From Spirochaeta cellobiosiphila DSM 17781 (lineage in GTDB: Bacteria; Spirochaetota; Spirochaetia; DSM-17781): DNA of 64,000 nt. The stretch covers positions 636,714-700,713 of the forward strand of contig NZ_KE384554.1 in assembly GCF_000426705.1 (NCBI RefSeq), in the 5' to 3' direction. The position numbers and the translations under genes are program-made. This document shows, in pieces, positions 2,645 through 17,237 of this stretch (positions within the stretch are counted from its first letter, which is position 1; the number at the start of each line of letters is the position of its first letter). A model generated the notes under the pieces. That model was not told where the DNA came from and ran no database searches. It saw nothing but the letters and a program-made list of their open reading frames with translations.

Positions 2645-2671
2645 AAAAAAACAGCTCTCATGGAGAGCTGT
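2645..2671 (-). terminator. Rho-independent terminator of the RpoS-like sigma gene
   Basis: A perfect 9-bp stem (ACAGCTCTC / GAGAGCTGT, 3-nt loop, 2651-2671) is followed on the minus strand by a run of T. It lies 35 bp after the sigma factor stop codon. Confidence 0.9.
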
Positions 2672-2705
2672 TAAAACATATAGTGTTTTTATTTATATGT
2701 AAAAT

Positions 2706-3566
2706 TTAGCCGACCATATAGGACTCTAAATGCTGACTTCTGCTAGGATGTTGCAATCTAGTAATGGCCTTCTTTTCAATTTGTCTAATTCTTTCCTTGG
2801 TCAGGTTAAAGCGATCACCTATTTCCTTCAACGACATAGGTCTTTTATTGTTAAGACCAAATCTGTATTCAATGATCTCTGCTTCTTTGTCTGTCAAGGT
2901 TGTCAATAATTGGTTAATATCATCTTTTAGAGATTTCTCCATCACCACTTCATCTGGAGCTTGATAGCCCTTATCTTCAATAAACTCTCCCAGGCTGGAA
3001 GAATCTTTTTCCTTATATACAGGAGTTTCCAAGGATACTAAATCTCTTGATATATTAATAAGATCATTCACATGACTTTGATCCATACCTAAGGAATCGG
3101 CTATCTCAGCGACTTCAGGATCTTCACCTTTGTAAGCTGTTAATTCTTTTCTAGTCTTTTCAATTTGTACTAACTCGTTTGCTCTGTTGAGTGGTAAACG
3201 TATAGCACGTGATTTTTCACATATTGCTTTCAGAATAGCTTGTCTGATCCACCATACGGCATAGGAAATGAAGTGATATCCCTTATCAACATCAAATCTT
3301 TCAATAGCGTTCATTAAGCCTATATTTCCTTCACTTATTAAATCACTAAGTGGTAATCCCTGGTTCTGATATTTTTTTGCTACATTAACAACGAATCGTA
3401 AGTTAGCGTTTACTAGCTTTTCTTTTGACAATTCATCTCCCGCTGCAGCGGCTCTAGCAATAGTATCTTCCTCCTCACGTGATAGGAGAGGAATCTTATT
3501 TATTTCTTTTAAATAAACAGAAAGGATGTTTTCATCATCTTGATTGTATTTCTTTGTTCTTGTCAT
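2706..3566 (-). CDS. rpoS: Group 2 (RpoS-like) sigma-70 family RNA polymerase sigma factor
   Basis: 286 residues. Region 1.2 starts near residue 13 (SVYLKEI), region 2 includes NLRFVVNVAKKYQNQGLPL and the VDKGYHFISYAVWWIRQAI segment, region 3 follows, and region 4 ends with an HTH (LKEIGDRFNLTKERIRQIEKKA). Region 1.1 and the long non-conserved insert of primary sigmas are absent, and the size is close to Borrelia RpoS, so this is a group 2 factor and not RpoD. The name rpoS is by analogy. GGGAGG precedes the ATG. A strong -24/-12 promoter candidate lies directly upstream and a terminator directly downstream, so the gene is probably monocistronic and under RpoN control. Confidence 0.85.
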   Translation of the reverse strand: MTRTKKYNQDDENILSVYLKEINKIPLLSREEEDTIARAAAAGDELSKEKLVNANLRFVVNVAKKYQNQGLPLSDLISEGNIGLMNAIERFDVDKGYHFISYAVWWIRQAILKAICEKSRAIRLPLNRANELVQIEKTRKELTAYKGEDPEVAEIADSLGMDQSHVNDLINISRDLVSLETPVYKEKDSSSLGEFIEDKGYQAPDEVVMEKSLKDDINQLLTTLTDKEAEIIEYRFGLNNKRPMSLKEIGDRFNLTKERIRQIEKKAITRLQHPSRSQHLESYMVG

Positions 3567-3600
3567 GTTGGTCCTCCCTTTGTGACTACACTAGTAATAT

Positions 3601-3616
3601 GCAAAAAAGGGGCCAA
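3601..3616 (-). promoter_or_regulatory. Candidate sigma-54 (-24/-12) promoter of the RpoS-like sigma gene
   Basis: On the minus strand the sequence is TTGGCCCCTTTTTTGC followed by AT. The GG and GC dinucleotides are 12 nt apart, as in the sigma-54 consensus TTGGCACG-N4-TTGC. Only two of the less critical bases between them differ. The predicted start point, near 3590, leaves a leader of about 24 nt that contains the GGGAGG ribosome site of the sigma gene. Confidence 0.7.
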
Positions 3617-3655
3617 TGTTACAATTTTTATAAAAATAATTTGTATTTACTTACA

Positions 3656-3731
3656 GTGTAATAATTTAAAACATATTCGACATAATGACTCAGAATTACT
3701 ATTTTGTTGTATAAATGTATCATTATTACAC
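3656..3731. promoter_or_regulatory. Inverted repeat upstream of the sigma-54 promoter, possible activator sites
   Basis: GTGTAATAAT at 3656-3665 and its exact reverse complement ATTATTACAC at 3722-3731 lie about 66 and 140 bp upstream of the predicted start point of the sigma gene. Enhancer sites for sigma-54 activators are often found at this distance. The region is very AT-rich, so chance is a real alternative. Confidence 0.3.
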
Positions 3732-3759
3732 ATTGATAATTATTACTATTAATATAGGG

Positions 3760-4425
3760 TCAATATACCCCAGATTGCAACTCATCATCTCCAGGAGTGA
3801 TCCGACAACACAGAGAACTAGATAATTCAGCCCCACAATCACAGACGATTTCTTTACTTTTCTTAGTTTCAACAAAAGAATGTCTTATAGTATTGGCTTT
3901 TTCACCATCAGGAACGTTTATATACGGAAAGATTATTCTCGTATTCATAAAAATTCTTTTCTTCTCACAAGCAGGTTTCCCTATTAGGGATCCTTCATCA
4001 TGGATGCTCATAAAATGTTCCCATAACAACTGCTGAATCATATCCCCCTCGGCTAAGGTTCCAATACGACGGGAAGATTTGGTATTCAAGTATTTTTCCA
4101 ACTGTATAGAAAAAAAGGCTTTCCAATCGTCTAACAAACTAGAGGGTTGTTTTATCATACCATATGAGTTCAAATATCTTTTTAAAACAATATCAAAAGA
4201 TCTACAAACCCTTAGCTTCTGGCCAGCTCTCCAGGTCTTTAATGCAGAACCGGACAGATTTAGTTTTTGCAAGGCAAAGCCAAGATAATAAAGTATTTTT
4301 GATAGTTCTTGTTTATGAGCCACGGGACAAACATGAATGGCTTTTGTAAAACTTCTTATAGCATCTTTGGGACTATGACTTTTGAGTGAGCGTTTGCCCT
4401 CTTTATAATAATGCTTATAGTCCAT
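3760..4425 (-). CDS. TPR-like protein with a C-terminal Cys cluster
   Basis: 221 residues, no signal peptide. The N-terminal 80 residues form TPR-like helix pairs (GKRSLKSHSPKDAIRSFTKAI, then LYYLGFALQKLNLSGSALKTW). The middle is unrecognised. The C-terminus holds a cysteine cluster (CDCGAELSSSLCC, about residues 195-207) that could bind zinc. I do not recognise the family; a protein-protein interaction role is the most that TPRs suggest. It stands alone on the minus strand, divergent from groES and upstream of the sigma gene. An AGGATGG sequence lies about 8 nt before the ATG. Confidence 0.65.
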   Translation of the reverse strand: MDYKHYYKEGKRSLKSHSPKDAIRSFTKAIHVCPVAHKQELSKILYYLGFALQKLNLSGSALKTWRAGQKLRVCRSFDIVLKRYLNSYGMIKQPSSLLDDWKAFFSIQLEKYLNTKSSRRIGTLAEGDMIQQLLWEHFMSIHDEGSLIGKPACEKKRIFMNTRIIFPYINVPDGEKANTIRHSFVETKKSKEIVCDCGAELSSSLCCRITPGDDELQSGVY

Positions 4426-8269: not shown

Positions 8270-9613
8270 ATGATCGTACTCAAATTTGGCGGTACAAGTG
8301 TACAAAGCAGTGATTGGATGGATAAATCCCTACAAATCGCCATTGATCAGCTTCATCGAAGTCCATTAATTGTATCATCAGCCATGGCAACAGTAACTAA
8401 TGGTTTAGTTTCCATATCAGAATTAACTGGCAAAGGTCAATATTCTGAAGCAATGAGTGAGTTAGATAGAATAAAAGAACTTCACTTTACAACTGCAAAC
8501 GCTTTTTTAACAAGTACCAACCTTGAGAATACTATTGATGAACTTAACACCCTATTTATATCCTTATCTTCATTAATTAAGGGATTATGTTTGTTACAGG
8601 AATGTAGCCCCACTTCTAATGCGGCATTATTATCCTATGGGGAACTGTTGTCGACAAAGCTTTTATCAGGAAGACTTACTGAAAAAGGAATACCCAATAC
8701 ATGGATAGACGCCAGACAGGTTATTGTCACCAATGAAGAATATGACTCAGCAGTACCTGATTTTAACTTAACAGGACAAAAAGTCATAAATAACATAAGA
8801 CCTAATCCTAATCACATTTATGTTACCCAGGGCTTTATAGGGGCCACCACTAAAGGGGTCACTACTGTTCTTGGACGTGGGGGATCTGATTATTCTGCTA
8901 CAATATTTGGAAGCTTATTGAATGTAGAGGAAGTCCAAATCTGGACTGATGTTACTGGTATTATGACAACAGATCCCCGCTTAGTACCCAATGCCATGAC
9001 CATAGATTCCATTTCCTATGAAGAAGCAGCAGAAATGGCCTATTTTGGTGCGAAGGTAGTTCATCCCTCAACAATCCAGCCAGCAGTAGATAAACGAATA
9101 CCTGTATGGGTGAAAAACACGAGGGAACCATCAGCTCCGGGAACAAAGATTTCCTTTCAAGCCCAGGGTGAGGGAATACGGGCAATTACAGGAAAGAAGA
9201 ACATAACCTTAATTAATATATCCTCTACCAGAATGTTAAATGCCTATGGCTTTCTAGCGAAAATTTTCCAGATATTTGAAAAATACTCCACTTCTGTTGA
9301 TTTAATTGCAACCAGTGAAGTATCAGTGTCCATGACCATTGAAGATAAAACCCATCTTCATGAAATCATTGATGAGATAAATGTATTTGCCAATGCTGTC
9401 TATGAGAACGATCAGGCTATAATCTGTCTGGTGGGCAAAAAATTATGGATGGATTCCAATTTTATTTCTAAGGTATTCTCTTTACTTTCAGAAACCCCCA
9501 TACGCATGGTATCTTTAGGATCAAGTGATATAAACTTGAGTTTAGTCGTATCAGAACAGCATAGGGAGACCACCATAAAAGTCCTTCATAATGAGTTATT
9601 CCATGGAAACTAA
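8270..9613 (+). CDS. lysC: Aspartate kinase (monofunctional)
   Basis: 447 residues. Phosphorylates aspartate, the first step toward threonine, methionine and (where made) lysine/diaminopimelate. The N-terminal KFGGTSVQSS motif, the VLGRGGSDYSATIFG nucleotide/substrate loop and the DPRLVPNAMTIDSISYEEAAEMAYFGAKVVHP segment are diagnostic. The C-terminal about 130 residues form the regulatory ACT pair (INISSTRMLNAYGFLAKIF; IRMVSLGSSDINLSLVV). There is no fused homoserine dehydrogenase. The lysC versus thrA-type symbol cannot be settled from sequence alone. Its end overlaps the next gene by 23 bp, so translation is probably coupled. Confidence 0.92.
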   Translation: MIVLKFGGTSVQSSDWMDKSLQIAIDQLHRSPLIVSSAMATVTNGLVSISELTGKGQYSEAMSELDRIKELHFTTANAFLTSTNLENTIDELNTLFISLSSLIKGLCLLQECSPTSNAALLSYGELLSTKLLSGRLTEKGIPNTWIDARQVIVTNEEYDSAVPDFNLTGQKVINNIRPNPNHIYVTQGFIGATTKGVTTVLGRGGSDYSATIFGSLLNVEEVQIWTDVTGIMTTDPRLVPNAMTIDSISYEEAAEMAYFGAKVVHPSTIQPAVDKRIPVWVKNTREPSAPGTKISFQAQGEGIRAITGKKNITLINISSTRMLNAYGFLAKIFQIFEKYSTSVDLIATSEVSVSMTIEDKTHLHEIIDEINVFANAVYENDQAIICLVGKKLWMDSNFISKVFSLLSETPIRMVSLGSSDINLSLVVSEQHRETTIKVLHNELFHGN

Positions 9614-10886: not shown

Positions 10887-11954
10887 GTGATATTAAAAGT
10901 TATTTTATTAATAGGGTTATCTTTTTTGCTTAACCTCATATTTACACCTGTAATAATAAAATTATCTCATCGTAATTCCTGGTTTGATCATATAGATCAG
11001 AGAAAGATTCATGACGGACAAATTTCCCGATTAGGGGGAATAGGAATATATGTTTCTTTCTTTCTAGTTATGGTTGTTGGAGTCATCTTATACTTCCCAG
11101 AGGTAAAGAATAATATTCTTAGCTATATATTACTAATAGCAGGATTAACAACAATGAATATTGTAGGAACCATTGATGATTTTCATACCATAAGAGCCGT
11201 ATATAAACTGGGAGGACAGATTCTAGCGGGAATACTCATTATTTCCGGCGGGTTTAGTATCCAAACAATTGAATTTCCCTTTTCCTCACTTTCTATTAAT
11301 CTCGGTTACATTGGGCCAATATTAACATTATTTTGGTTAGTAGCACTTTCTAATGCTATTAATTTAATGGATGGATTAGATGGTTTGGCAGGAGGAATAT
11401 CTTTATGGGCAGCTTTGGGAATGGGTTTATTAGGCATTATGACAAATTCAGAATCTGTACAGTTATTGTCTTTTCCTCTAGTAGGTTCTTTATTGGCCTT
11501 CCTTGTTTTTAATCTTCCTTTTCCTAAAGCTAAAATCTTTATGGGAGACTCTGGGGCTCTAACCATTGGATTTATAATTGCTACTCTGCCATTGCTATTC
11601 ACACCGGGAAGAACCACGACTTTAAACTTGTTTGTACCAAGCTCGCTACTTATTCTCCCCATATTAGACACATTTGCTGCTATTATAAGAAGATTAAGAA
11701 ATAAACAACCTATCCACCAACCAGATAGAGCTCACTTGCACCACAAGTTGCTGGATTTAGGATTTAATAATAAACAAATCCTATTAATAGTTTACTTATT
11801 TAGCTTTGTTGGAATACTAATGACCCTCTCCTGGTCTAAATTTGGTCATTACGTCGGTATACTATTAATATTTGGATTTTGGATAGTGGGAATTCTCTTT
11901 TTTACTATAATTCACTTTGCCAATAAAAGACTTCAAAAAGAAAGCCCTAACTAA
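10887..11954 (+). CDS. Undecaprenyl-phosphate sugar-1-phosphate transferase (WecA/TagO type)
   Basis: 355 residues, about ten to eleven membrane segments. This family moves a HexNAc-1-phosphate from UDP-sugar to a polyprenyl phosphate and so starts cell-surface polysaccharide synthesis. Visible signatures: IDQRKIHDGQISRLGGIGIY, the GTIDDFHTI Asp pair, NLMDGLDGLAGG, the KIFMGDSGA segment, and AHLHHKLLDLGF, which replaces MraY features and marks the WecA/TagO branch. The start is GTG, with AAGGA seven nt upstream. It ends the aspartokinase-led run and overlaps the convergent NtrC-type gene by 4 bp. Whether the sugar is GlcNAc is inferred only. Confidence 0.88.
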   Translation: MILKVILLIGLSFLLNLIFTPVIIKLSHRNSWFDHIDQRKIHDGQISRLGGIGIYVSFFLVMVVGVILYFPEVKNNILSYILLIAGLTTMNIVGTIDDFHTIRAVYKLGGQILAGILIISGGFSIQTIEFPFSSLSINLGYIGPILTLFWLVALSNAINLMDGLDGLAGGISLWAALGMGLLGIMTNSESVQLLSFPLVGSLLAFLVFNLPFPKAKIFMGDSGALTIGFIIATLPLLFTPGRTTTLNLFVPSSLLILPILDTFAAIIRRLRNKQPIHQPDRAHLHHKLLDLGFNNKQILLIVYLFSFVGILMTLSWSKFGHYVGILLIFGFWIVGILFFTIIHFANKRLQKESPN

Positions 11955-13327
11955 GCATGCTTGGAAAACTCTTCTTCCAGATTATATTCATGTAATTTGC
12001 GATGAAGAGTTTTTCGACCAATACCAAGGATTTCAGCAGTTTTGCTTTTATTCCCTTTATAGTGGATGAGAGTGTTTCTAATCACTTCCTTTTCCGCCTC
12101 AGCCATAGTACTACCAATCGTCAGTTTGATCATTTGCCCTTCCTCATTATTTCTTATATGGGGAGGTAGATCATCAACAGTAATGACAGGACCTTTGGAC
12201 ATAACAACCGCACTTTCAATACAATTACGCAATTCTCTAATGTTACCTGGCCAGGAATAATTATTGAGGGCCATTCTGGCTTTGACATCCAAACCATGTA
12301 TAACTTTTCCATTCTCCTCTGCCATTTCAACAAGGAAAGTCGAATACAATAAAGGAATATCTTCTTTTCTTTCTCTTAATGGGGGAATATGAATGTTAAC
12401 AATATTAAGACGGTAATACAAATCTTCCCGGAAATTCCCCTTCTCTACTTCTTTTATCAAATCTCTATTAGTGGCCGCTACAATGCGAACATCAACGTCT
12501 AAAGTATCTTCTCCACCGACTCGTTCAAATTGCTTCTCCTGAAGAACTCTCAATAACTTTATTTGAACGCTCTGGTTGATTTCCCCGATTTCATCAAGGA
12601 ATATGGTCCCCTTATGAGCTAACTCGAACCGTCCCTTCTTACGACCGACAGCCCCGGTGAAAGCGCCCTTCTCATGTCCAAATAGTTCTGACTCCAAAAG
12701 GCTTTCACTTAGGGCCGCACAATGGGTTTTTATAAGAGAACCCTCAGTGCGGTTAGATTGTCTATGGATAGCTTCAGCAACAAGCTCTTTACCAACACCA
12801 CTCTCTCCAGTGATAAGTACAGATGCTTTTGTAGGGGCCACCTGGTTTATCAATTCAAAAATAGCCTGCATTTGGGAGGACTTCCCAATCATCTTGTTAA
12901 ACTGTCTACGTTTTTCAATCTTTTCAACTTCTTCCTTCAGCATCTCGTGCTGGCGGATAAGCTCTCTGTTAGATAAAGCACGTTTCACTAATAGACCCAA
13001 ATGGTCAAGGTTCACCGGTTTGGTTAAAAAGTCATAAGCACCATCTCGCATGGCATTAACGGCGTTCTCCACAGTACCATGTCCTGTAAGAACAATAACA
13101 GGGATAGTAGGAAAGGAGGAACTGATATACTTTAATAATTCTTCCCCTGACAACTTGGGCATCTTCAAATCGGTGATAATCAAATCGATGAGCTCATGTT
13201 TGAGTTTTTCCTGAGCATCTTGTCCATTTTCAGCCAGAACAATATTATATCCATCCATTTCAAGGGCGCTACCCAACCCTTGTCGAATATTCTTTTCATC
13301 ATCCACTACCATAATAGTAAAGGTCAT
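11951..13327 (-). CDS. NtrC-family sigma-54 activator (Rrp2-like response regulator)
   Basis: 458 residues from the ATG at 13327; this ATG overlaps the kinase stop (ATGA), so the longer TTG-started frame is rejected. Receiver with D9/D10 and phosphoacceptor Asp53 (IITDLKMP). The AAA+ domain has Walker A GESGVGKE, an intact GAFTGA loop (EKGAFTGAVGRKKGRFELA) and Walker B (GTIFLDEIGEI). A Fis-type HTH ends it (NKSKTAEILGIGRKTLHRKL). GAFTGA contacts sigma-54, so this regulator opens -24/-12 promoters. With the adjacent PAS kinase and murG/cvpA it resembles the Borrelia hk2-rrp2 locus. Its likely target in this window is the sigma factor gene at 2706-3566. Confidence 0.93.
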   Translation of the reverse strand: MTFTIMVVDDEKNIRQGLGSALEMDGYNIVLAENGQDAQEKLKHELIDLIITDLKMPKLSGEELLKYISSSFPTIPVIVLTGHGTVENAVNAMRDGAYDFLTKPVNLDHLGLLVKRALSNRELIRQHEMLKEEVEKIEKRRQFNKMIGKSSQMQAIFELINQVAPTKASVLITGESGVGKELVAEAIHRQSNRTEGSLIKTHCAALSESLLESELFGHEKGAFTGAVGRKKGRFELAHKGTIFLDEIGEINQSVQIKLLRVLQEKQFERVGGEDTLDVDVRIVAATNRDLIKEVEKGNFREDLYYRLNIVNIHIPPLRERKEDIPLLYSTFLVEMAEENGKVIHGLDVKARMALNNYSWPGNIRELRNCIESAVVMSKGPVITVDDLPPHIRNNEEGQMIKLTIGSTMAEAEKEVIRNTLIHYKGNKSKTAEILGIGRKTLHRKLHEYNLEEEFSKHA

Positions 13328-14493
13328 GGTTCTACTCCCTCCCACATAATCAGGTGCTTTTCTTTCTGAGGAATAGGAAAGGTGAAACAAAATTTAGTCC
13401 CTACCCCTTCATCCGAGTCTACTTGAATCTCGCCACCATGTTCCTTGATGATCTTGTAGACCAAGGTTAATCCCAATCCACTTCCAGAATCTTTTGTTGT
13501 AAAATAGGGTTCAAAGATCTTATCCCTTATGTCTTTCGGAATACCAATTCCTGTATCCTGTATCTCTAAATGAACTTCATTCTCCTTGGAATAGGTGCGA
13601 ACCTTCAAAGTTCCCCCCCCTTCCATGGCATGAATAGCATTTTTTACAATGTTTAAAATGGCTTGTTTAATAAAACGTTCATCCATGTCAATCTGGGGAA
13701 GCTTTTCATCAAGATTCGTGACCATCTGAACATCTGACTGATCCATTTCAAAATGGAGGAAGTCCAACAGATCCACAACCACCTTATTCAAGTCCCCTTT
13801 AAGCATACTAGTATCCATTGGTCGAACAGCGAAAAGAAAATCAACAACAATACCATTGAGCCTTTCCACCTCTTCTGCAATAACATCCAAGAATTTCTCT
13901 ATCCGGGGATAATCAAAATCCCCGCAGTTCTGATTCTTAAAGGATTTTTGTATCAATTGTAAATGAATACCAATACTACCGAGAGGATTTTTGATTTCAT
14001 GGGCCACACCAGCAGCGAGAGTCGTCAGAGAAGCAAGGTTTTCAGCTCGTCTAAATCGAGCTTCCCTGTTCTTTTTATCGGTGATGTCCTCGATCTGAAA
14101 TAAACTCCCCCTGATCTTGCCCTTTTGAACTAAAGGAAGAAGGGCCATAGAATAGATACGGAAAGAACCTCGAAAATCAAGACTCATCTCGTGATCTTCA
14201 AAATTAAGCTGTTTTTCCAGGCTTTCCCGGAGTAATTGGGATATATCAGAATCACTAACAGCTTCCCACAACAATGTACCTTCATGGGGACGTTTGTTCA
14301 TAATAACATGACTGGGACGATTGCAGAACAAAATACGATGGGATTCATCGGTCACCACAACACCATGGGTCATGGAGCCTAAAACCATCTCAAATAATTC
14401 GTTTTCCTTAACCACCTCACCTAAAAGATTCTTAATCTGATTAGGTTCTAGTTTAGGTAACTTATCTAATGCTTTCTTTACGAATTTACTCAC
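13324..14493 (-). CDS. NtrB-like PAS sensor histidine kinase (Hk2-like)
   Basis: 389 residues, no membrane span, so a cytosolic kinase. A PAS domain (about 35-145) starts at NELFEMVLGSMTHGVVVTDESHRILFCN. HisKA carries the phosphorylated His in AAGVAHEIKNPLGSI, and HATPase_c has the N box ILNIVKNAIHAM and G boxes DTGIGIP and GSGLGLTLVYKII. It overlaps the regulator gene by 4 bp and lies 8 bp after holB. It should phosphorylate Asp53 of the adjacent sigma-54 activator. The ligand sensed by PAS cannot be read from the sequence. Confidence 0.92.
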   Translation of the reverse strand: MSKFVKKALDKLPKLEPNQIKNLLGEVVKENELFEMVLGSMTHGVVVTDESHRILFCNRPSHVIMNKRPHEGTLLWEAVSDSDISQLLRESLEKQLNFEDHEMSLDFRGSFRIYSMALLPLVQKGKIRGSLFQIEDITDKKNREARFRRAENLASLTTLAAGVAHEIKNPLGSIGIHLQLIQKSFKNQNCGDFDYPRIEKFLDVIAEEVERLNGIVVDFLFAVRPMDTSMLKGDLNKVVVDLLDFLHFEMDQSDVQMVTNLDEKLPQIDMDERFIKQAILNIVKNAIHAMEGGGTLKVRTYSKENEVHLEIQDTGIGIPKDIRDKIFEPYFTTKDSGSGLGLTLVYKIIKEHGGEIQVDSDEGVGTKFCFTFPIPQKEKHLIMWEGVEP

Positions 14494-14501
14494 AGATTTG
14501 C

Positions 14502-15662
14502 CTATTTTCCTTCTTTTAAATTAAAGAATAAGCGCTCTAAAGCCAAGGATGGATTCTGGTTCAGTGTCTCTACACTAAAAAGACTATCCTTTACAATATT
14601 AAGAGTTCGTTCAAAACCCAGAAAATCAACATCTGCCGTGTTATGTAGATCCTGTCGAAAGGTTTTCACCAACTCTTCTAAGAATATACGAAAATAATCA
14701 CGTCCCGCCAAATCTGGTAGCTGATAATCGACAATATCATTCTTAATCGCATCACGAAACTCAAGAGCATAGGCTTTCATAGTACCGGGAGCTAAACCCT
14801 TCCAGGCATAAAAGTATTCCTTAATACTTTCATACTCCCCAGAATCCTCACGGAAGATTCTCATAAGAATATCTTTCTGTTGTTCTATAGTTCTCTCAGG
14901 AAAGTTATAGATCCTTAATCGAGATAATAATGTAGGAAGAATGGAACCTCTCTGATTGGTAATCAAGAGAAAGAAGACATTATGGGGCGGTTCTTCAAGA
15001 ATCTTTAAGAGGGCATTACGGGCGCTATCCTGCATCTGTTCAGCTTTATCAATGATCACGACCTTAGGATTGTTACTGGATTGATGACTCCAGGCCGCTA
15101 TGCGTCTGATTTGATCAACAGGAATGGATTTAGGAACAAAACCAGAAAGCTTTTGACAATCCTCAAGTAAGCCTTTCTTTGTTTTTTCCAAATCCTTATC
15201 ATTCAGTCGAGGCGCTTCCAGGGCAAATTGATCCAGATAGTCTTCAACAGAACTCAACAGATTTCGAAACTTTTTCATCTTCGCTTCCTCCCCTTCCCAA
15301 AGAAGAGGATGAAATCTTATAGTTAATTTACGAATAGCCCTTCGAACCACAAACTTTGAAAAGACCTTGTCAAAACGACTATAGACATCCAGAGCAGACT
15401 GTATCTCAGGTAAAAAGTCACCCTGTCCTAATATCAGCATAGAGGTATGCTCTAATTGCCTATGTAACTGACAATTACGGCATTGGCATCCCCAATCTGC
15501 TGATTCGGTGCACATTAAAGCCCGACCCACTTCTATGGCTGATGTCATTTTTCCAGAAAAAGGAGTCCCGACAAATAACATGCTTTGAGGCAGGAGTTTA
15601 TTAGATATCTCACGAGTTAAAATATTAACCAGAGTAGGCTGATAGAGAATGTTATCAAACAT
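14502..15662 (-). CDS. holB: DNA polymerase III delta-prime subunit
   Basis: 386 residues. Part of the clamp-loader complex. Walker-A-like GTPFSGKMT near residue 33, a Cys cluster (C..GCQCRNC, about 51-63) for structural zinc, then VVIIDKAEQMQDSARNALLKILEEPP, the highly conserved delta-prime/gamma segment, and ITNQRGSILPTLLSRLRIYNF (sensor/SRC-like region). It is about 50 residues longer than E. coli HolB, with an inserted helical segment (about 85-160) between the zinc cluster and the DKAEQM segment. It overlaps cvpA by 8 bp in the murG-cvpA-holB-kinase-regulator transcription unit. Confidence 0.88.
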   Translation of the reverse strand: MFDNILYQPTLVNILTREISNKLLPQSMLFVGTPFSGKMTSAIEVGRALMCTESADWGCQCRNCQLHRQLEHTSMLILGQGDFLPEIQSALDVYSRFDKVFSKFVVRRAIRKLTIRFHPLLWEGEEAKMKKFRNLLSSVEDYLDQFALEAPRLNDKDLEKTKKGLLEDCQKLSGFVPKSIPVDQIRRIAAWSHQSSNNPKVVIIDKAEQMQDSARNALLKILEEPPHNVFFLLITNQRGSILPTLLSRLRIYNFPERTIEQQKDILMRIFREDSGEYESIKEYFYAWKGLAPGTMKAYALEFRDAIKNDIVDYQLPDLAGRDYFRIFLEELVKTFRQDLHNTADVDFLGFERTLNIVKDSLFSVETLNQNPSLALERLFFNLKEGK

Positions 15663-16149
15663 TGAGTTTCTTTACTCCCTCTTCAAACAAGGATTGCCCC
15701 TGGGGGAGATAGGGAGAAATCCTCTCATAAAAAACAGATTCCCCCAAAAGCTTTTGAGGATCAAAAAGGGGTTGAATCTCAATAACCATAATCACCAGAA
15801 AGATAACAATAAGACCTTCCAAAGCACCTATAAGAATGCCCAGAATCCGGTCCAGGCCTTCCAGATTAAGGTTCTCCACCATATTAAGTATCATATTTTG
15901 AGCAAGTCTTAGAATAATCGCAAAACCTATAAAGATACCAAAGTAAGCCAGGTATATTGTGTTATCTCCCCAATCGAGGTAACCCTTTATATATTCAGAA
16001 GCTAAGGGACCCAAGGCAACAGCAAGGATTACCCCCCCGACAAGGGTCATAAAATTAATAATCTCAGTAACAAAACCACGAAACAATCCAAAAAATACAA
16101 AACCACCTAGTATCATCAAAAAAATGATGTCCATAAGGACAAGATTCAT
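15655..16149 (-). CDS. cvpA: CvpA-family membrane protein
   Basis: 164 residues, four predicted membrane helices. Begins NLVLMDIIFLMILGGFVFFGLFRGFVTEIINF, the CvpA/colicin V production pattern, with GALEGLIVIFLVIMVIEI in the last helix. CvpA proteins are linked to envelope integrity and, in E. coli, colicin V secretion; the biochemical role is unclear. The start overlaps the murG stop (ATGA), and the C-terminal tail overlaps holB by 8 bp. Confidence 0.85.
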   Translation of the reverse strand: MNLVLMDIIFLMILGGFVFFGLFRGFVTEIINFMTLVGGVILAVALGPLASEYIKGYLDWGDNTIYLAYFGIFIGFAIILRLAQNMILNMVENLNLEGLDRILGILIGALEGLIVIFLVIMVIEIQPLFDPQKLLGESVFYERISPYLPQGQSLFEEGVKKLNV

Positions 16150-17237
16150 GACTGTAGCTCCTTTATAATTTCGTCTGCTAACAATTGGGAAGCCCCACCG
16201 GAAAAGACCTCACTAGCTCTTTGGCCCAAGGACAGGCGCTTATTATCATCTTCGGTTAGTTCTTTGACTTTGGGTAATAATTTATCCCCCGAAGCGGTTT
16301 TGCTTTCTAATACCCAAAGGGCGCCCTTATTCTCAAACAATTCCGCATTACGCACCTGATCCCCACGGGATCCTGAATCGAGAGGAATCAAGATAGTCGC
16401 CTTCCCCAAGCTACACAATTCCCATAAAGAGTTAGCTCCTGCCCGGGAAACCACAATGTCAGCTATATCATAAACATCAGCCATATCATCATGAAAATAT
16501 TCAACAGCCTTATAATGAGGATTTGGATTTGCTTCTGCTACAAGATGGCCTTTCCCTCTTTGGTGAATGATATAGAGACCAAGATCCAACAGCTGAGCCT
16601 TGATTTCATCAATGATATCATTGATCTGTTTGGCCCCTGAAGAGCCGCCTAATACCAGAAGAACTTTCTTATCAGCTGGGATGGACCACTTTGTCTGAAG
16701 CTTCGTCTTATCCCCTTGGAAGAGAGCTTCCCTTAAAGGATTACCGGACACAACTAATTTTGATCTTAGTTTGCTAGAAAAATAAGAGAGAGATTCCTCA
16801 TAAGGTAGGAAAATCTTCTTGGAAAATCGACTATTGATTTTAGTTGCCAAGCCGGGATCAAGATCTGATTCATGGCTATACACAGGGATCCTTAACAACC
16901 ATGCAGCTAACACAGGAGGAACCGATACAAATCCCCCCTTGCTGAAAAGCAATCGAGGACGATGGAACATCAAATAAAAGAAAGCCTTAATGACTCCTGC
17001 AGTGATGCGAAACAAATCTAAAAAGTTCTGTATAGAAAAATACCTTCGTAACTTTCCCGAAGGCATACCTATATAAGGAATACGGGTTTGCTTAATGATG
17101 TCCCTTTCCATACCTTTAGAGGAACCTAACCAGCGAATATCCCAATCTTTTGATTTATTAAGCTTGTCGATGACAGCTAAAGCTGGATATACGTGACCTC
17201 CGGTACCACCACCAGTAAAGAAAACTCTGTTGTTCAT
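16146..17237 (-). CDS. murG: UDP-GlcNAc:lipid I GlcNAc transferase
   Basis: 363 residues. Adds GlcNAc to lipid I to make lipid II on the inner face of the cytoplasmic membrane. Diagnostic motifs: GGTGGHVYPALAV (residues 9-21), LFSKGGFVSVPPVLAA, HESDLDPGLATK, VLGGSSGAKQIND, and the nucleotide-binding SRAGANSLWELCSLGKATILIPLD. Full length for the family. The ATG follows AAGGGG. It is the first gene of the five-gene minus-strand unit and is divergent from a secreted protein gene. Confidence 0.96.
   Translation of the reverse strand: MNNRVFFTGGGTGGHVYPALAVIDKLNKSKDWDIRWLGSSKGMERDIIKQTRIPYIGMPSGKLRRYFSIQNFLDLFRITAGVIKAFFYLMFHRPRLLFSKGGFVSVPPVLAAWLLRIPVYSHESDLDPGLATKINSRFSKKIFLPYEESLSYFSSKLRSKLVVSGNPLREALFQGDKTKLQTKWSIPADKKVLLVLGGSSGAKQINDIIDEIKAQLLDLGLYIIHQRGKGHLVAEANPNPHYKAVEYFHDDMADVYDIADIVVSRAGANSLWELCSLGKATILIPLDSGSRGDQVRNAELFENKGALWVLESKTASGDKLLPKVKELTEDDNKRLSLGQRASEVFSGGASQLLADEIIKELQS

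Follow-up and report, generated by a model that had tools for sequence, protein, structure and literature searches.

The window, which is the whole 64-kb stretch of DNA analysed, carries on its minus strand a short gene of the sigma-70 family, called here sigma A, and on the same strand a histidine kinase gene and a sigma-54 activator gene (Table 1). The kinase and activator genes overlap by 4 bp and lie beside murG and cvpA, as the original prediction described, with holB placed between the kinase gene and cvpA. An HD-domain protein (1822-2622) and a hybrid two-receiver histidine kinase (334-1773) are encoded just downstream of the sigma gene, behind its terminator.

Table 1. Features of the sigma A locus and of the kinase-regulator neighbourhood in the window.
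Feature	Position	Strand	Basis or remark
Intrinsic terminator 3' of the sigma gene	2650..2672	minus	10-bp stem with T run
Group 2 sigma factor sigma A, 286 aa, not an RpoS orthologue	2706..3566	minus	Pfam, trees
Ribosome-binding site AAGGGAGGA	3572..3580	minus	direct reading; inside the 23-nt leader
Sigma-54 promoter TTGGCCCCTTTTTTGCA (-24/-12)	3600..3616	minus	score 16.7; GG-N10-GC in 51/55 genomes
Weak third site (predicted) TGAGTCATTATGTCGAA	3676..3692	minus	score 6.2; 40 bp beyond site 2
Upstream activator site 2 (predicted) TGTGTAATAATGATACA, 17-bp palindrome	3716..3732	minus	score 19.6, best of the window
Upstream activator site 1 (predicted) TGGGGTATATTGACCCT	3756..3772	minus	score 11.4, second-best of the window; overlaps the stop codon of the upstream gene
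Response regulator and sigma-54 activator, Rrp2 orthologue (REC, AAA+ with GAFTGA, HTH_8)	11951..13327	minus	Pfam
Histidine kinase, Hk2 orthologue (weak PAS match, HisKA, HATPase)	13324..14493	minus	Pfam; 38% to Borreliaceae HK2
holB, DNA polymerase III delta-prime-like, syntenic marker	14502..15662	minus	Pfam; same place in Borreliaceae
cvpA, syntenic marker	15655..16149	minus	Pfam PF02674
murG, syntenic marker	16146..17237	minus	Pfam PF03033/PF04101

The sequence TTGGCCCCTTTTTTGC (3616-3601, minus strand) occurs once in the window and lies in the promoter TTGGCCCCTTTTTTGCA, which sits 33 nt 5' of the ATG of the sigma gene. Taking the C of the GC element as -12, the predicted start point is 3589, and the short leader that follows holds the ribosome-binding site. 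Both the spacing of the promoter and a leader just long enough for a ribosome site had been proposed in the original prediction, and both agree with the present reading. A sigma-54 matrix, whose frequencies approximate the published consensus, gives this promoter the top score of both strands of the window, with a runner-up at 13.2, and among 1180 random 350-bp pieces of related genomes none reaches 15 and 0.7% reach 13. The loose pattern TGGC-N7-TTGCW with at most one mismatch has 18 matches in the window, against 20 expected by chance, so the support for the promoter comes from its conservation. This chance-level frequency is also what speaks for a fortuitous -24/-12 match, in which case the gene would be transcribed by read-through of the preceding gene or from a promoter of sigma-70 type, a reading that is highly improbable in view of position-specific conservation and of the conserved enhancer described below. 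An exact GG-N10-GC lies directly 5' of the orthologue in 51 of the 55 Spirochaetia genomes that carry the sigma gene, and the remaining four have one substitution in GG or GC. From the upstream gene to the ATG there is no convincing -35/-10 element; two 9-of-12 matches on the minus strand near 3780-3736 do not exceed shuffled sequences. An additional contribution of read-through or of a weak second promoter is possible.

Outside the class, 46 homologues from other phyla and outlying lineages have sigma-54 sites at background frequency (one at 15.0 and one at 13.2), and the enhancer palindrome is found ahead of none of them. The rpoN gene that the proposed cascade calls for is present once in the window's genome (G000:C3:130958-131437, 187.5 bits), and an RpoN domain is detected in 59 of the 60 genomes compared. 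The same genome has 11 strict sigma-54 matches and three of the reversed pattern, and two hsp20 loci and two sigma genes make up four of the 11. Judged by its conservation, the sigma-54 promoter at 3616-3600 of the minus strand is real.

Some genomes depart from the common form of this promoter. In the Treponema denticola-like genomes G024 and G045 (L123, L145 and L247), a group assigned from genome features and gene order, and in G037 (L240), AG replaces the -24 GG before sigma A (TTAGCAT...TTGCT). G024 has the same -24 AG before a second sigma gene. In these genomes rpoN is present and GG is retained at hsp20. A shift in sigma-54 preference or in regulation is possible in these AG-bearing genomes. 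In G019 (L128) and G059 (L251), the DNA-binding domain of RpoN is very divergent (E about 1e-11 to 1e-13), and sigma A has the odd promoter CGGGAACAAATATTGCT behind an intact palindrome.

An inverted-repeat search 5' of the orthologue promoters gave half-sites that assemble into TGTGTCA-N3-TGACACA, a 17-bp palindrome repeated with a 40-bp period, of which the window has a pair at 3772-3716. The weak third site forms a further pair with site 2 in the tandem-pattern search. With up to three mismatches, the palindrome is found in 49 of 55 orthologue upstream regions and in 12 of 590 shuffles, and a second copy lies 39-41 bp away in 35 of the 55 regions (exactly 40 bp in 30). The copies are mostly located 95-210 bp 5' of the -24 element. 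By sequence and position, the predicted sites have the character of upstream activator-binding sites of the sigma A promoter. Another palindrome family, TGTGCG-N2-CGCACA, was dropped; its scores are close to those of shuffles, and it lies farther upstream, probably within the preceding gene.

Training of the enhancer matrix used the sigma A upstream regions, and the Hsp20 loci and most genomes of the phylum lie outside this set. An independent search of 297 genomes of the phylum for nothing but the tandem pattern, with at most two mismatches, matched 31 genomes; the reversed pattern matched none. Of 25 tandem loci read, 24 are followed by a sigma gene, in nearly every case with a clear sigma-54 site ahead of it, and four belong to other classes of the phylum. 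The exception, L364, has two near-identical tandem palindromes 3.2 kb apart (G189:C205:5479-5535 and 8699-8755), one of which precedes a weak sigma-54 site and a gene for a 455-codon exported protein; it is possibly an extra target or a repeat.

Further tandem sites lie ahead of a sigma-54 site that is followed by a gene of about 145 codons for Hsp20. In the relatives, all 30 of the best Hsp20 loci show a sigma-54 site scoring at least 13 and 29 show the palindrome, and the same test on 1500 random pieces gives 35 with a sigma-54 site and two with the palindrome. In the window's genome, the hsp20 loci on contigs C2 and C25 both carry the sigma-54 site and the enhancer. One Borreliaceae genome retains before hsp20 a sigma-54 site and a single palindrome-like site. 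Borreliaceae genomes were recognised from the length of RpoD, other genome features, and the flgI/flgJ and murG/cvpA/hk2/rrp2 gene orders. In two genomes placed there by gene order, rpoN looks broken, with many stops in G018 (C1:472400-472828) and a split frame in G058 (C1:475649-476073), which could be an assembly error; their sigma-54 site before hsp20 is decayed and the -24/-12 element before rpoS is intact.

The regulator has a match in all 60 genomes, and in nearly all of them one clear orthologue stands well above the paralogues. Identity is 55-72% over the 60 genomes and 58-59% in Borreliaceae, and the kinase is 38% identical over 387 aa to Borreliaceae HK2. A Borreliaceae genome has the identical order murG-cvpA-holB-HK-RR, and AtoC and NtrC are the NCBIfam models that the regulator matches best. 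By identity and gene order, the kinase and the regulator are orthologues of Borrelia Hk2 and Rrp2, which upholds the likeness to rrp2/hk2 that the original prediction drew from the neighbouring genes. In 25 Spirochaetia genomes, rrp2 and sigma A share a contig at a distance of no more than 20 kb, and there sigma A follows rrp2 in the same orientation, 3-12 kb downstream; the two genes are far apart in seven other genomes. In Borrelia and in G014, the recognition helix of Rrp2 has Asn in place of Arg (LHRK to LHNK). A loss of site recognition through this change was considered and rejected, because G014 retains a perfect palindrome before hsp20.

The window sigma factor has the Pfam sigma-70 regions 1.2, 2, 3 and 4 and lacks region 1.1, and a full-length RpoD-like frame of 646 aa is located elsewhere in the genome (G000:C24:85759), which by domain content makes sigma A a group 2 factor. 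At least four sigma-70-family genes of this genome match the query well, and trees split them into RpoD, the window type A, a second short type B and a third type C. Sigma B (G000:C24:612953-612123) lies about 24 kb outside the window. G034 (L196 and L254) has three window-type sigma genes in its genome, with the sigma-54 promoter and the palindrome at one only. The contig CALPQG020000024.1 (L055), labelled as a Bifidobacterium breve MAG, encodes a Bacteroidota-type sigma factor and is probably mislabelled or contaminated.

The original prediction took the window gene for RpoS-like, and a direct RpoS orthologue would make the circuit the Borrelia cascade itself, as the sigma-54 promoter on a short sigma-70-family gene and the Rrp2/Hk2 orthologues in the same neighbourhood would suggest. 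The trees contradict it: Borreliaceae RpoS clusters with sigma B (support 100/98), and the AU test rejects a clade of Borrelia RpoS with the window sigma factor on two row sets, with p = 8e-6 and, when the other longest rows (long branches) are left out, p = 0.046. The gene order, with names read from translations, agrees with the trees. Borreliaceae have flgF-flgG-flgA-flgI-flgJ-rpoS-polysaccharide deacetylase and the window's genome has flgF-flgG-flgJ-sigma B-polysaccharide deacetylase; the order flgG/flgJ-sigma-divergent polysaccharide deacetylase is absent at the window sigma gene and present at G000:C24:612123-612953. Borrelia RpoS and group B also share IKQ in region 2.4 and ETVRQIE in region 4.2, and the window factor has the RpoD-like residues IRQ and KERIRQIE. 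Borrelia rpoS, which is of type B, has a sigma-54 site and no palindrome, in line with PMC1976401. Since trees, gene order and these residues agree, the counterpart of Borrelia RpoS is, on comparative grounds, sigma B, and the window gene is a paralogue of RpoS. Direct orthology with RpoS is hardly tenable. The window-type sigma factor is absent in Borrelia, where it was probably lost.

Of the cascade that the original prediction placed here, the RpoN promoter, rpoN and the Hk2/Rrp2 orthologues hold, and the role of the window gene as RpoS does not. Sigma B also has a promoter of sigma-54 type, CTGGCACGCCATTTGCA, at about C24:613000-612984, and a sigma-54 promoter precedes all ten group B genes read. 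The old link from RpoN to a sigma factor is therefore strengthened, with two sigma factors instead of one. The suggestion that the cascade may be ancestral fares well, since the link between sigma-54 and a sigma-70-family gene extends across the class and is hence probably ancestral.

The palindromes could be bound by another activator at a truly sigma-54-dependent promoter, with Rrp2 as a mere neighbour. Most genomes encode many sigma-54 activators, and the palindrome is missing from the group B promoters, even from the one that Borrelia Rrp2 activates: no palindrome scores 6 or more before the ten group B genes, or 5 or more before three Borrelia rpoS genes. By the same site scan, the idea that an Rrp2-type activator drives the RpoS-type gene through the palindrome was rejected. 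Three lines of evidence make a foreign activator unlikely. In the small genomes G006, G011 and G036, sigma A still has the palindromes ahead of it, and the Rrp2 orthologue is the sole sigma-54 activator encoded; these assemblies are 95-99% complete, so that a second activator could be missing from them. In G078, of another class, an Rrp2-type gene (54% identical) is followed directly by a tandem palindrome, a weaker sigma-54 site and then sigma A (57%), and G124, also of another class, has the regulator, the tandem enhancer and the sigma gene in the same arrangement. The Borreliaceae genome that retains a palindrome-like site before the sigma-54 site of hsp20 has Rrp2 as its sole activator. 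This is strong circumstantial evidence for the Rrp2 orthologue as the protein that binds the palindromes, and the activator of the sigma A promoter is very probably the counterpart of Rrp2.

The explanation that we hold to be likely, with good confidence, is an enhancer-dependent sigma-54 stress switch of Hk2/Rrp2 type that controls sigma A and Hsp20. The promoter, the enhancer, the conservation of both, the shared Hsp20 target and the orthology with Rrp2 are established computationally; binding by the Rrp2 orthologue, the signal and the sigma A regulon are inferred. The kinase would phosphorylate the Rrp2-type activator, which would bind two or three of the 17-bp palindromes, 40 bp apart, between 3772 and 3676. 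By looping of the DNA, the activator would then remodel the sigma-54 RNA polymerase waiting at the promoter, and the sigma factor gene would be transcribed from about 3589. The Hsp20 genes elsewhere in the genome would be driven by the same activator with the same enhancer layout, and the sigma factor, through its presumed regulon, would carry the second wave of the response. The co-regulation of Hsp20 points to proteotoxic or related stress as the probable trigger. By analogy with the report on Hk2 for Borrelia rpoS (PMC1976401), the kinase could be dispensable.

For the phylum, a wider history is moderately favoured, in which Hk2/Rrp2 is the ancestral enhancer-dependent sigma-54 system for proteotoxic stress, with Hsp20 and the group 2 sigma factor as core targets. 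In the Borrelia part of this history, the sigma factor and the enhancer would have been lost and the activator kept, now acting without an enhancer on the RpoS-type gene for virulence. The simplest history would thus make the enhancer-independent control of RpoS in Borrelia a remnant, a direction that we infer. If it is true, the DNA-binding specificity of Borrelia Rrp2 should be close to the palindrome found here. The suggested role of Hk2/Rrp2 before Borrelia is a response to stress by a chaperone and a sigma factor, and the circuit is a candidate route in spirochaetes for the control of small heat-shock proteins without RpoH.

The tandem 17-bp palindrome at the promoter, which recurs before orthologues and Hsp20 genes, is an addition of the present analysis to the original prediction. 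In the openly accessible literature, no paper was found on this enhancer, or on a sigma factor or Hsp20 driven by sigma-54 in spirochaetes outside Borrelia. A 2025 survey lists sigma-70-type sigma genes and IbpA among sigma-54-associated families generally, and TsaD in Spirochaetia (PMC12316311).

Virulence of the Lyme spirochaete is controlled centrally by the Rrp2-RpoN-RpoS pathway. The window circuit resembles that of Borrelia burgdorferi in its orthologous kinase and regulator, the same gene order, RpoN, and a sigma-54 promoter before a short sigma-70-family gene. It differs in that its sigma factor is a paralogue and not RpoS, and the tandem enhancer and the shared Hsp20 target make it mechanistically unlike the control of Borrelia rpoS. 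Activation of rpoS by Borrelia Rrp2 needs no enhancer and involves no binding of Rrp2 upstream of the gene, and no site has been found for the DNA-binding domain of this regulator (PMC1976401). The palindrome is a concrete candidate for such a site and predicts Hsp20 as a direct sigma-54 target. With NtrC-type enhancer-dependent systems the circuit shares a REC-AAA-HTH activator, paired palindromes about 100-160 bp upstream and a -24/-12 promoter. It differs from them in its targets, a sigma factor and Hsp20, and in the palindrome with its fixed 40-bp period, which is specific to this spirochaete group. In Myxococcus xanthus, HsfBA, a pair of a kinase and an NtrC-like regulator, activates the heat-shock gene lonD. 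It may be regarded as a functional analogue only, from another phylum and with other targets. Among spirochaetes, EbpA/EbpB-RpoN of Leptospira provides sigma-54 regulation, with amtB and lipoprotein genes as its reported targets, and L. interrogans is reported to lack RpoS and RpoH, with no sigma-70-family target described (PMC12655853); these targets differ from the sigma factor and Hsp20 of the window circuit. With the counterpart of Rrp2 as its very probable activator, the circuit suggests that the Rrp2-RpoN-RpoS cascade of Lyme disease is a pared-down form of an older stress switch.
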